This document shows positions 42,484 through 56,644 of a stretch of DNA of 64,000 nucleotides, in pieces; position 1 is the stretch's first letter; each line of letters opens with the position of its first letter. A program made the position numbers and the translations under genes. Under the pieces are notes generated by a model. It ran no database searches. It was not told the origin of the DNA and was given only the letters and a program-made list of their open reading frames with translations. The stretch lies in NCBI RefSeq assembly GCF_900100875.1, contig NZ_FNKQ01000001.1, positions 310,001 through 374,000 on the forward strand, written 5' to 3'. The DNA is from Halopelagius longus (lineage in GTDB: Archaea > Halobacteriota > Halobacteria > Halobacteriales > Haloferacaceae).

Positions 42484-43167
42484 TTACGCGCCCTCGAACC
42501 CCGAGAGGACGCCCTGACCGTCGGTGCTGTCCCCGAGGTCGGGGAGACAGGCGCGTTCGGGGTGCGGCATCAGGACGGCGACGGTGTCGCGTTCGCCGAG
42601 GATGCCCGCGACGTTGCCGCGAGAACCGTTCGGGTTCGACTCCTCGGTGACGTTCCCGTCGGCGTCGCAGTACCGAAAGAGGACGCGGTCGGCCGCTTCT
42701 AGTTCCTCGTAGCGTTCGTCGCTTATCTCGAATCGACCCTCGCCGTGGGCGATGGGCAGTGCGATCACGTCGCCCTCCTCGTACGCCGCGGTCCACGGCG
42801 TGTCGGCGTTCTCGACGCGGAGGTGGACGCGTTCGCACTGGAAGCGCGCGCTCTCGTTCGTCGTGAACGCGCCGTCGGTGAGGCCCGACTCCGAGCCTAT
42901 CTGCGCGCCGTTGCAGACGCCGAGGACGGGGACGCCCCGTTCGGCGGCCTCCCGAACCTCGCTCATGACGGGCGACCGCGCCGCCATCGCGCCGGCGCGG
43001 AGGTAGTCGCCGTAGGAGAACCCCCCGGGGAGGACGACCCCCGTCACGTCGTCCGGGAGGCCGTCCTCGTGCCACACGCGTTCGGCGTCGATTCCGAGGT
43101 GCGAGAGCGCCCGTACGGCGTCTCTGTCGCAGTTCGACCCGCCGAACTGGACGACGGCGACCGTCAT
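42484..43167 (-). CDS. purQ: phosphoribosylformylglycinamidine synthase subunit PurQ
   Basis: The glutaminase subunit of FGAM synthase (step four of purine synthesis), handing ammonia to PurL with PurS. 227 residues: AVVQFGGSNCDRDAVRALSH at the start, PGGFSYGDYLRAGAMA, catalytic cysteine in VLGVCNGAQIGSESGL and the His-Glu pair in LMPHPERACL. It starts in the ATGA overlap of a 19-residue micro-ORF that carries a perfect GGAGGTGA Shine-Dalgarno 8 bases upstream. purS lies upstream on the same strand; purL is not in this window. Confidence 0.95.
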   Translation of the reverse strand: MTVAVVQFGGSNCDRDAVRALSHLGIDAERVWHEDGLPDDVTGVVLPGGFSYGDYLRAGAMAARSPVMSEVREAAERGVPVLGVCNGAQIGSESGLTDGAFTTNESARFQCERVHLRVENADTPWTAAYEEGDVIALPIAHGEGRFEISDERYEELEAADRVLFRYCDADGNVTEESNPNGSRGNVAGILGERDTVAVLMPHPERACLPDLGDSTDGQGVLSGFEGA

Positions 43168-43244
43168 CTGGAGTCACCTCCGTGTGACGCCTCGACGGTC
43201 GGCGTCGAGAAGGTGACCGTCATCGGGAGACGCCTCCGTGCGTC
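43153..43244 (-). repeat. tandem duplication of the purQ translation-start region
   Basis: 43153-43188 and 43209-43244 align without gaps over 36 bases with 29 identities, offset 56. Each copy contains CACGGAGG, a TCC triplet, then ATGACGGTC. The downstream copy starts purQ; the upstream copy starts a 19-codon micro-ORF in another frame. This suggests a small tandem duplication of the purQ initiation site. Confidence 0.75.
43164..43223 (-). CDS. micro-ORF 2 before purQ (19 residues)
   Basis: MTVTFSTPTVEASHGGDSR. It starts at an ATG preceded by GGAGG (CACGGAGGCGTCTCCCG) and ends with TGA overlapping the purQ ATG. The Gly-Gly codons near the end are the Shine-Dalgarno of purQ. Expected role, if translated, is reinitiation coupling. 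Confidence 0.45.
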   Translation of the reverse strand: MTVTFSTPTVEASHGGDSR

Positions 43245-43261
43245 GTCAATCTACGGAACAT
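43220..43261 (-). CDS. micro-ORF 1 between purS and purQ (13 residues)
   Basis: MFRRLTTHGGVSR, starting directly after the purS TAG (TAGATG) and ending in an ATGA overlap with micro-ORF 2. Together with micro-ORF 2 it fills the entire 94-base purS-purQ gap with reading frames. Both end in HGG-x-SR, as expected from the duplicated start region. Confidence 0.4.
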   Translation of the reverse strand: MFRRLTTHGGVSR

Positions 43262-43513
43262 CTACGCTTCCGCCACCTCGACGTCGTAGTCGTGGATGGT
43301 CGGGTTCGCGAGGAGTCGTTGCGCCATCTCGTCGGCGCGGTCCTCGGCCTCGTCCGCCGAGGGAGCGTCTAAGTCCACCTCGAACTGGTCCGCCGAGCGA
43401 AGCGTCTCCAACTCGAAACCGAGGCGTTCGAGCGCTCGCTTCGTCGTCTCGGCCTCCGGGTCGAGGACGCCGCGCTTCAGGCGAACCGTCACCGTCGCGG
43501 TGTAGGTCGTCAT
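43262..43513 (-). CDS. purS: phosphoribosylformylglycinamidine synthase subunit PurS
   Basis: 83 residues; small structural subunit of FGAM synthase that bridges PurL and PurQ. MTTYTATVTVRLKRGVLDPE and TKRALERLGFELETLRSADQ are the family pattern, ending HDYDVEVAEA. Start at 43513 fits a leaderless mRNA: CTTTTGCC (about 43531-43538) lies about 20-27 bases upstream; an in-frame ATG at 43534 would overlap that TATA. It is followed by two micro-ORFs and purQ. Confidence 0.93.
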   Translation of the reverse strand: MTTYTATVTVRLKRGVLDPEAETTKRALERLGFELETLRSADQFEVDLDAPSADEAEDRADEMAQRLLANPTIHDYDVEVAEA

Positions 43514-43711
43514 CGTGTTGGGGTGCGCGGTCATGGGCAAAAGACGTTTTGGACTGCCTCCGATATGCACGAACGTGGGTATCGATGCCGCGGCGAGCGG
43601 CGTCCGTCGGCGACCCGGGCGGACGGGAGAGACGGCCGCTTCGCGGCCACGACGGCCGAGAGACGACCGAAGATGGACACCCTTTTGCGTTCGGACACCC
43701 TCGAACCGCCG

Positions 43712-43750
43712 ATGACTCCGTTCGAAAGCAGCTGGAGGTGGGACCGATGA
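43712..43750 (+). CDS. micro-ORF overlapping the purU start (12 residues)
   Basis: MTPFESSWRWDR, ending in TGA that overlaps the purU ATG (ATGA). A TATA-like CCCTTTTGCG lies 24-33 bases before its ATG, so the micro-ORF itself would be the leaderless first cistron, with the GGAGGTG Shine-Dalgarno of purU inside it. Two tryptophan codons in a short leader recall attenuator peptides, but there is no further evidence for that. Confidence 0.5.
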   Translation: MTPFESSWRWDR

Positions 43751-44754
43751 CAGACCTGACCGAGATTACCGTCATCGGAGGAGACAAGACTGGACTCATC
43801 GCGAACGTCACCACCCTGCTGTTCGAGCGCGGAATCAACGTCGAGGACTTGGACCAAGCGGTCCGCGACGGCATCTTCCGGATGACGCTCCACGCGGACA
43901 CCTCCGAGATGGTCTGCACCGAGGAGACGCTCCGGGACGCGCTGTCGGAACTCGGCGACGAACTCGGCGTGGACGTGCAGGTCCGCTTCCCGTCGGACCG
44001 CGAGACGCAGCAGATCGCCGTGCTCACGACCAAGGAGTCGCACTGTCTGGAGGCGCTGTTCGAGGCGTGGACGAACGACGAACTCGGCGCGGACATCTCC
44101 GTCGTCATCGGGAACCGCGACTCCCTCGAACCGCTGGCTTCGCAGTACGACGTGCCGTTCCACGACATCGGCGACGAGAAGGGGTCGCCCGACGAGGACG
44201 AACTGCTCGAACTGCTCGAGCAGTACGACGTCGACCTCATCGTCCTCGCGCGCTACATGCGCATCCTCAGCCCGAACGTCGTGTTCCGCTACGAGGACCG
44301 CATCATTAACATCCATCCCTCCCTGCTGCCGGCGTTCCCCGGCGCGGCCGCCTACCGGCAGGCCAAAGAGGAGGGCGTCCGCATCGCGGGCGTCACCGCC
44401 CACTACGTGACGACGGACTTGGACCAAGGTCCCATCATCACCCAACGGGCGTTCGACGTGCCGGACGACGCCAGCGTCGAGGAGATAAAGGAACTCGGCC
44501 AACCGCTCGAAGCCGACGCGCTCCTCGAAGCGGTCCAACTCCACCTCGACGGCGCCGTCAGCGTCCACCGCGGACGGACCAGCGTTCGCGAGGACGCAGA
44601 CGAGTCCGAGTACCAACTCGGAATGACGAAGCAGGCCCGCGAGGCGAACCCGGACCGGCCCGTCGACGGCCTCGGCGACGCACTCGCCGACGCGCCCGAG
44701 TCGGCGGACGAGGACGACGAGGCGGAAGCGACTCCGGAACCCTCCGACGACTGA
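43747..44754 (+). CDS. purU: formyltetrahydrofolate deformylase PurU
   Basis: Hydrolyses 10-formyl-THF to formate and THF, feeding formate to purine synthesis and balancing one-carbon pools. 335 residues: an N-terminal ACT domain (ITVIGGDKTGLIANVTTLLF) and a formyltransferase-fold hydrolase domain with RYMRILSPNVVFRYEDRIIN, INIHPSLLPAFPGA and YVTTDLDQGPIITQR, which supplies the Asn-His-Asp triad. A second domain-like stretch (LTTKESHCLEALFEAW) is the usual PurU linker-barrel. The C-terminus has an acidic halophilic tail of about 50 residues. Start is in the ATGA overlap of a 12-residue micro-ORF. Confidence 0.93.
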   Translation: MTDLTEITVIGGDKTGLIANVTTLLFERGINVEDLDQAVRDGIFRMTLHADTSEMVCTEETLRDALSELGDELGVDVQVRFPSDRETQQIAVLTTKESHCLEALFEAWTNDELGADISVVIGNRDSLEPLASQYDVPFHDIGDEKGSPDEDELLELLEQYDVDLIVLARYMRILSPNVVFRYEDRIINIHPSLLPAFPGAAAYRQAKEEGVRIAGVTAHYVTTDLDQGPIITQRAFDVPDDASVEEIKELGQPLEADALLEAVQLHLDGAVSVHRGRTSVREDADESEYQLGMTKQAREANPDRPVDGLGDALADAPESADEDDEAEATPEPSDD

Positions 44755-54470: not shown

Positions 54471-55265
54471 TTAGCCCAATTTGTCGTAGCTGTCCTGTTG
54501 GGACCGCCAGTAGAGGAATCCACCGGCGAACAGGGCGACGACGAGTACGCCGCCGACGGCGTACATCGCGAGCTGTTTCGTCTGGCTCGACTGCTGTGCG
54601 TTCTCGGCTTTCGTCTGGGCTTCGCTCGCGAGTTTCGTCGCGAGGTCGAAGTTACCGTTCTCGTAGGCGTCCACCGCGTTGGAGAACTGCTGTTCGGCCT
54701 CCTTCGTGTTCGCGCCCGATGCGCTCTGGATGGCCGACTGCGCCTCGTCGAGTGCGGCGCGCGCGTCGTTGCTCTCCTGCGTGAAGTGGTGGGTGGACCA
54801 CGTGCCGATCTCGTTGGAGGACCCGCCGGAGCGAGTCTGCGTCAGTTCCATCGCGGTGAACTCCTGTGCGGGGTCGTAGCTGTACGACTCCACCTCGGGG
54901 ACGGTGCCGGTGACGGTCACCTCGACTTCGCTCGTCCCGTCGGCCGCGGAGACGTCCGCGCCGCTGAAGTTCTGACCGTCGAACTCGTCCTGTCCGACCT
55001 TCGCGCCGGTCTGGTCGTAGTAGACGACGGTCCACGTCACGTCCGTCAGTTCCGTAGAGCCCGCGAGCGTCCACGATTCCAACTGCGGGTTCTTGTACAG
55101 TTCGTCGAGCGTCACCGTCGCGGTGACCTGTTGACCGACTTCGCTCTCGGCGGGGACGTCGTCGTTCCCGACGGAGACGGCGGCCGCTGGAACGGCCACC
55201 AGAGAGAGGGCGAGCAGACAGGCCAGCGCGAGCTTAAAACAGCGATTCAAGCTCGTCTTCGTCAT
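54471..55265 (-). CDS. exported membrane-anchored protein overlapping cetZ1
   Basis: 264 residues. Signal peptide [20 protein letters not shown], then about 130 residues of beta-rich outer domain ([40 protein letters not shown]), a helical Ala/Gln-rich region like a coiled coil or TPR-type stretch ([40 protein letters not shown]) and a C-terminal helix ([20 protein letters not shown]) with a short cytoplasmic tail. The gene starts 32 bases inside the end of cetZ1, so expression is coupled to it. It may be a membrane partner for CetZ1; no family was recognised. Confidence 0.78.
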
Positions 55266-56418
55266 CGTTGATGAGATTTTGCAAGTTGTCGTTACTCTCC
55301 TCTCGGATCTCGTCGATGTTGTCCTGCGCCTCGATGGCGACCTGCTGGAGTTCCTTGATGCGCGGCACGTTCGTGACGCCCGAAAGCAGGATGACGGACG
55401 CGACTTTCCCGGCCCCGCGGATGGGGTAGTCGCCGCCGCGGACTTCCATGCTCCCGGTCTGCTCCTCGATCCACTTCCGCCCGCGCTCTATACCTTTCCG
55501 GTTGAGATGCTCCGGCGGGCCGGCCATCACCAGAAGGGCGCGTTCGGTGCCCTCTATCTCGCAGGGGAGCGTGAGGCGTCCGAGCGCCGCCTTCCGCACG
55601 AGCGACGTGATTCGGTTGGTCGTGTGGGCGGTGTCGAGATTCGTGTCCTCTTCGCCGCCGGTGAGTCGAGAGAGCAGTCCCCCGCCGGAACCGCCCTCAC
55701 TCTCGACGCTCTCGGAGGCGTAGCCGACGGTGGAGACGCCACCGCCGGCGAGCGTGTTGATAATCTCGGAGGAGTCGACGACGCTCTCTGCGACTTCGCC
55801 CCCCTGTTCGACCTCTCCGGCCCCGAACAGGACGCCGAAGCGGTTGACTATCTCCTCGTTAATCTCGTCGTACCCACCCTGTACGGACTCCCCGGTCTTC
55901 CGCCACGCGTCGTTGTCGAACACCATGAGGTTGTCCACCTCACGGACGAACGTCTGGAACGACCGCGCGGCGTTGAGGGTGTAGATACCCCCTTCGTCGC
56001 TGCCCGGCAGGATGCCGAGGCCGTACACGGGTTCGGTGTAGATTCGTTTCAGGTGTTTCGCTAATACGGGCGCACCGCCGCTCCCGGTACCGCCTCCGAG
56101 TCCGGAGACGACCAAGAACGCGTCCACTTCGTGGACGGGGATCGAGTCGATGGCACCTTGAACTTCGTCGATGTCTTCCTCGGCGATTTCGGCGCCGAGT
56201 TCGTTGTCGGCACCGACACCGTGGCCCTTCACGCGCGACTGCCCGATGAGCACGCGTTGGTCCTGCGGAATATGTTCGAGTCCCATCAAGTCTGCCTTCG
56301 CCGAATTGACTGCGACGGCCGCGCGGACGATGCCCGACCCTTGCCGCTTGTCGTATTCGACGAATTTATCGACTACTTTTCCCCCAGCCTGCCCGAATCC
56401 GATCATTGCGAGCTTCAT
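55234..56418 (-). CDS. cetZ1: CetZ1 tubulin-like cell-shape protein
   Basis: 394 residues. CetZ proteins polymerise with GTP and control haloarchaeal cell shape and motility. The chain starts MKLAMIGFGQAGGKVVDKFV, has the tubulin/FtsZ signature SGLGGGTGSGGAPVLAKHLK, KRIYTEPVYGLGILPGSDEG and the T7 loop TFVREVDNLMVFDNDAWRKT, and ends with the acidic tail [14 protein letters not shown]. This composition is characteristic of CetZ1. A TATA-like TTGAATATAT (56441-56450, minus sense ATATATTC) gives a leaderless or very short leader. An outward AT-rich TATA block is also found near 56592. It overlaps the next gene by 32 bases. Confidence 0.95.
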   Translation of the reverse strand: MKLAMIGFGQAGGKVVDKFVEYDKRQGSGIVRAAVAVNSAKADLMGLEHIPQDQRVLIGQSRVKGHGVGADNELGAEIAEEDIDEVQGAIDSIPVHEVDAFLVVSGLGGGTGSGGAPVLAKHLKRIYTEPVYGLGILPGSDEGGIYTLNAARSFQTFVREVDNLMVFDNDAWRKTGESVQGGYDEINEEIVNRFGVLFGAGEVEQGGEVAESVVDSSEIINTLAGGGVSTVGYASESVESEGGSGGGLLSRLTGGEEDTNLDTAHTTNRITSLVRKAALGRLTLPCEIEGTERALLVMAGPPEHLNRKGIERGRKWIEEQTGSMEVRGGDYPIRGAGKVASVILLSGVTNVPRIKELQQVAIEAQDNIDEIREESNDNLQNLINDDEDELESLF

Positions 56419-56644
56419 CGTTTCTCCGGTCCCCTCGCCATTGAATATATGCCAGCACCAACGTAGACATAAGCCTTGTGATGCCGGAATGTCGATTCAG
56501 GGGAATATAACGGGGTAAATCGCCGGACGTAACCGGGCTGTTAACGAGTCGTTACACCGACGGATAGGCGTCCTTCGAGGTGGAAGGTATGAATTTATAT
56601 ATAACTCTTTCGGCCGTTCGGGCGGGAATTCCCTCCGTCGGCCG
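56419..56644. promoter_or_regulatory. AT-rich region upstream of cetZ1
   Basis: 226 bases. It holds the cetZ1 TATA (about 56441-56452) and a second long A/T run, TTTATATATAACTC (about 56592-56606), which is a good TATA box on either strand and has no gene in leaderless range. It may drive a separate short transcript or a second, long-leader cetZ1 mRNA. Confidence 0.5.

Follow-up and report, generated by a model that had tools for sequence, protein, structure and literature searches.

A predicted leaderless micro-cistron at the start of purU and its conservation across haloarchaea

The purU locus and its leader

The window (the whole stretch of Halopelagius longus DNA that was analysed, 64,000 nucleotides) carries a purU gene whose 335-amino-acid product contains the domains PF00551 and PF13740, scores 245.8 bits against NF004684, above the cut-off of 223, and falls below the cut-off of TIGR00655. 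Beside it, purQ- and purS-like ORFs, recognised by eye, are arranged divergently (42484-43570 of the window, minus strand). A reading of this DNA made from the sequence alone had claimed that a 12-codon ORF overlaps the purU start and contains the purU Shine-Dalgarno (SD) motif, and the coordinates, the ATGA and the GGAGGTG all proved correct (Table 1). The ORF reads ATG ACT CCG TTC GAA AGC AGC TGG AGG TGG GAC CGA TGA, and the SD within it is strong and well spaced from the purU start. Positions -12, -9 and -6 relative to that start are among the most conserved of the leader in aligned purU relatives. The frame of the micro-ORF is open upstream as far as 43523, so that the length of the ORF is in itself no evidence and comparison is required.

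Table 1. Positions of the features discussed, at purU and at two other genes.
Feature	Coordinates	Strand	Remarks
TATA-like core, TTTT in ACCCTTTTGCG (TATA-like CCCTTTTGCG)	43683-43686	+	micro-ORF ATG follows 26-29 nt downstream
Weak BRE-like CGAAGATGGAC	just upstream of the 43683-43686 core	+	aligned relatives
Predicted leaderless micro-ORF (fore-cistron)	43712-43750	+	12 codons plus TGA; peptide MTPFESSWRWDR, then stop
SD GGAGGTG for purU, within the micro-ORF, read there as W-R-W	43734-43740	+	sequence and leader conservation
ATGA overlap of micro-ORF stop (TGA) with purU start (ATG)	43747-43750	+	NTGA in 171/194 loci, TGATG in 1/194
purU, formyltetrahydrofolate deformylase-like (ACT + formyl transferase), second cistron	43747-44754	+	profile matches
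cetZ (tubulin-like)	55234-56418	-	same window as purU
cetZ micro-ORF, MARGPEKR then stop; its end and the cetZ start (56418) share ATGA	56415-56441	-	18/23 relatives
Micro-cistron of HTH-domain regulator	L271:12732-12772 (G000:C1:732731 onward)		length changes in steps of three

The same reading held that the TATA-like element is spaced for transcription starting at the micro-ORF ATG and not at purU. The spacing is consistent with this: the TTTT lies about 28 nt before the ATG, and 87 of 94 representatives are alike, with a promoter core 24-33 nt upstream of theirs. When the relatives are aligned on the micro-ORF ATG, a T-rich peak appears between -30 and -27, and in front of it, between -42 and -35, the columns are rich in purines. 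The BRE/TATA consensus is nCGAAACGAAnCnTTTTT; Babski et al. (PMC4983044) quote CGAAA as the haloarchaeal BRE and TTWT as the TATA motif, and these columns agree with both. Longer micro-ORFs (20 to 41 nt) go with a larger distance between promoter and purU (48 to 68 nt), while that between promoter and micro-ORF stays at 27-31. The promoter matrix was trained near the micro-ORF start, which makes this spacing partly circular though the scan covered 110 nt, and a T/A scan that involved no training agrees with it. Since the promoter keeps its distance from the start of the micro-ORF, transcription most likely begins there, and probably no more than about 2 nt separate the mRNA 5' end from the start codon.

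Conservation of the layout and variability of the peptide

The sequence-only reading had proposed a comparison of purU upstream regions across haloarchaea, with missing conservation as the result that would count against it. Such regions were gathered from several families of haloarchaea and brought into one orientation, and 194 non-identical loci were left once duplicates had been removed. The micro-ORF was found to be conserved: in 172 of these loci an ATG micro-ORF, starting 17-56 nt upstream of purU, ends exactly at the purU start. The single TGATG among these overlaps is an alternative that is also of the reinitiation type. ATGs located 20-55 nt upstream of purU fall into the coupling frame and the other two frames in the proportion 187:13:5, and after clustering at 60% identity in the proportion 64:5:3 (binomial p about 1e-22, a value that ignores deeper relatedness). 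The main start distances are 20, 23, 26, 29, 32, 35, 38, 41 and 50 nt, so that changes occur almost only in threes, and in five Haloprofundus-type genomes a GTG replaces the ATG at the same place. Exceptions are few. In L043 and L168 the micro-ORF stops slightly inside purU, as read from the sequences, because the second purU codon has changed, and the micro-ORF is absent from second purU paralogues and from L217, L202 and L204. The second paralogues L140, L147, L148 and L150 are more diverged and have neither a micro-cistron nor a clear promoter at that spacing. Conservation of the frame across the class, length steps of three and a promoter spacing that tracks the micro-ORF start together confirm, at the level of sequence comparison, that the micro-ORF is real and above chance.

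In two lineages the ORF that begins at the corresponding ATG does not stop at purU, and continues in frame into it. These are group g5 (L171-L174) and the Halobacterium-like group g31 (L207-L213), where the fused ORFs (MDTADRPNPRRW-DTEIVVVG; MPTPNGSPEVAPLRTDLTEITVVG) give the purU product an N-terminal extension, and in L207 and L208 GGAGGTGG, containing the SD, is retained as coding sequence. Such fusions indicate that the ATG acts there as a translation start. It could be argued that the micro-ORF ATG is conserved solely as an initiator element for transcription and not as a start codon, given that it sits where transcription should begin. We consider this highly improbable, as it leaves unexplained why the frame is tied to that of purU and why the stop overlaps the purU start, and also the GTG substitution and the in-frame fusions.

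The product of the micro-ORF, in contrast to its layout, is not conserved. The peptides differ widely, examples besides that of H. longus being MFSFEQLEVTV, MNHDAVRRWVS, MNRSSLERRWLR and MSRSKRPARWWP, and the SD is read in differing frames by different lineages. In 41 close pairs, each independent of the others, the first, second and third codon positions show 33, 21 and 27 changes, and there are 48 non-synonymous codon changes versus 15 synonymous ones. Nucleotide variation is 11% in the micro-ORF versus 23% in the upstream flank. Because the micro-ORF thus varies about half as much as the flank and shows no codon bias, some constraint may act on it at the level of the RNA rather than of translation.

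The two Trp codons of the H. longus micro-ORF had led the sequence-only reading to call ribosome-stalling control conceivable, and an attenuator-like leader with Trp- or peptide-dependent stalling would indeed make use of them. This idea did not survive the comparison of relatives. Trp is absent from 36 of the 94 representatives, whole lineages such as Haloferax (MFSFEQLEVTV) reading the SD as E-V and hence lacking it, and 54 of 69 Trp codons fall exactly on the SD read as TGG (position -8); Trp codons therefore appear to be by-products of TGGAGGTGG. The 94 representatives show no conserved enrichment of regulatory codons, and neither a terminator/antiterminator structure nor a terminator hairpin was found at the purU leader. 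Together with the divergence of the peptides and the excess of non-synonymous changes, this leaves a stalling leader with almost no credence in our assessment. As neither peptide nor Trp is conserved, amino-acid sensing is not supported and the micro-ORF product is probably irrelevant.

Other signals that could act on the leader were sought as well. The purU leader gave no Rfam match to a riboswitch or other known RNA, and no bacterial-type promoter or terminator was seen at the locus. The segment that was folded does somewhat better than its shuffles (z -2.37). Over 81 relatives the pairing probability of the SD is 0.77 versus 0.73 in codon-shuffled controls, and masking of the SD by structure was rejected on account of this small excess. 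The SD region is able to pair with a part of the purU coding sequence that lies some 64-75 nt further downstream (43734-43830), a weak tendency across relatives.

Genes with the same architecture

The generality of the layout was examined in 800 kb of the H. longus genome and 400 kb from each of two relatives. In the 800 kb there are eleven ORF pairs in which a short ORF behind a TATA-like site overlaps the next ORF by an exact NTGA, and the layout is conserved in orthologues from the two relatives for purU, for cetZ and for the gene of an HTH-domain regulator, with one case in the control frame. Starts of the cetZ micro-ORF lie 17, 20 or 23 nt upstream of the gene where it is kept, and the five other relatives have a cetZ leader that lacks it. 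At the HTH gene the frame counts are 17:2:4 and the peptides are very variable. In most HTH-gene relatives that lack the micro-ORF, the start of the gene itself lies 28-29 nt behind the promoter, and these are apparently directly leaderless, as if the rule were that a start codon is kept at the mRNA 5' end. A pantoate-kinase-like gene of H. longus also has a TATA, the short ORF MLSPDALRGRGP and a GTGA overlap (L243:7105, minus strand; G000:C1:167105); this candidate was set aside when the layout was not conserved in the relatives found.

A possible route to purU translation

Of the protein-coding transcripts of Haloferax volcanii, 72% are leaderless (PMC4983044). In work on a 5'-UTR of this organism, mutation or replacement of the SD gave none of the effects that its use would predict, and the SD was not used for de novo initiation (PMC3986360). 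Translation across ATGA overlaps, on the other hand, was strictly coupled in nine H. volcanii gene pairs, with a variable contribution of the SD (Huber et al. 2019, PMC6728339). On these properties taken together, purU is most likely reached through initiation at the 5' end, translation of a short stretch, termination and then reinitiation. With this in mind, we consider it likely that the micro-ORF is a leaderless micro-cistron which brings terminating ribosomes to purU, where they reinitiate with the help of the SD, and this is the best explanation of the data. According to this model, the purU mRNA would begin at or a few nt from 43712 and a ribosome would start on the 5'-terminal AUG, requiring neither leader nor SD. 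Twelve codons would then be translated, their amino acids being unimportant, and the ribosome would terminate at the UGA, which shares bases with the purU AUG. Held by the SD within the micro-ORF, the terminating subunit would reinitiate at purU. The micro-ORF would thus serve as a ribosome-delivery device on which purU depends, the purU SD being presumed unable to recruit ribosomes de novo. That the mRNA begins with a micro-cistron and that purU is reached by coupling had been proposed from the sequence alone, and the comparison of relatives lends this strong support. The role given to the SD is uncertain, since it was dispensable for reinitiation in the H. volcanii pairs tested (PMC6728339).

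Two other views of the locus concern the relation between the micro-ORF and purU. The strong SD at good spacing, in front of which the frame is open anyway, would also fit translation of purU through its own SD, independently of the micro-ORF start codon. We regard this as very unlikely, considering the conserved frame and overlap, the length changes in threes, a promoter that tracks the start of the micro-ORF and not that of purU, and the failure to find SD-driven initiation in an H. volcanii 5'-UTR (PMC3986360). A repressive or regulated uORF could also be envisaged, in which translation of the micro-ORF limits purU and the efficiency of reinitiation is regulated, for example by initiation-factor or purine/folate state. 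Reinitiation is generally below 100%, conservation throughout the class on a single metabolic gene suggests that more than initiation is involved, and the purS/purQ-like ORFs are divergent neighbours. Yet codon content and peptide are not conserved, the leader offers neither an Rfam match nor a terminator and little excess structure around the SD, and the layout is common to cetZ and the HTH gene, which share no common pathway with purU; regulation of this kind is accordingly unlikely.

Delivery of ribosomes by the micro-cistron would have precedents, and a 2025 review mentions short ORFs for which it has been proposed that they hand ribosomes on to the gene behind them (PMC12548453). The closest known kind are the leaderless 'coupled' small ORFs of mycobacteria (Shell et al. 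2015, PMC4633059). There too a short ORF ends with a TGA in an RTGA overlap and its peptide is unconserved, with initiation and linkage conserved, and the ORF starts with a 5'-terminal RTG, as is predicted for purU. Those ORFs are bacterial, were demonstrated by transcription start mapping and ribosome profiling and were illustrated by one orthologue pair between two species, whereas the purU micro-ORF is archaeal, is described in silico only from 194 haloarchaeal loci and has a strong SD inside. Overlapping H. volcanii pairs (PMC6728339) share with purU the ATGA overlap and the SD inside the upstream ORF; their upstream cistrons are ordinary genes, and that of purU is an ORF of 6-18 codons with no conserved product. 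At purU the stop/start overlap (RTGA; 1- or 4-nt type) is present as in both kinds of coupled ORF, the SD within the upstream ORF is a feature of archaeal termination-reinitiation pairs, and the architecture is conserved more than the peptide, as in the mycobacterial kind. For every feature that can be tested in sequence, the purU micro-ORF would therefore fit the mycobacterial and archaeal kinds. A synthetic leaderless bicistronic design for Corynebacterium (Liu et al. 2023, PMC10367133) similarly places an SD-containing fore-cistron behind a leaderless promoter and requires the start codon and the SD of the fore-cistron for full strength; it is engineered and bacterial, whereas the purU layout is natural. 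The uORFs reported for H. volcanii (Babski et al. 2016, PMC4983044) are also short ORFs upstream of genes. They were reported only for leaders of 150-250 nt and peptides of 15-31 aa, so that the haloarchaeal micro-ORFs fall outside that search. Among papers free of subscription, and in their main texts, we found no archaeal description of such a leaderless micro-cistron.

Only four intergenic 8-nt GGAGGTGA motifs are well placed before a gene in H. volcanii (PMC3986360). Haloferax purU has the exact GGAGGTGA before its start and may therefore be one of these four genes. One may speculate, with a confidence that falls somewhat short of even, on a general haloarchaeal device: genes with an SD 'leader' would be the second cistrons of leaderless micro-operons, SDs in 5'-UTRs would work only after a micro-ORF has delivered the ribosome, and the class, of which purU, cetZ and the HTH regulator would be three members, might make up perhaps 1% of genes. 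If true, this would reconcile the existence of strong SDs with the failure of SDs in de novo ribosome recruitment.

If confirmed, the purU micro-cistron would be a natural archaeal leaderless bicistronic element of which the layout, and not the product, is conserved class-wide. It would help to explain strong SD motifs near some first genes where the SD is unused for de novo initiation, and would define micro-ORFs of 6-18 codons that are absent from annotations and escape current searches for small proteins. Archaeal reinitiation could readily be studied with it, and it could serve as a part in the design of expression constructs for haloarchaea.
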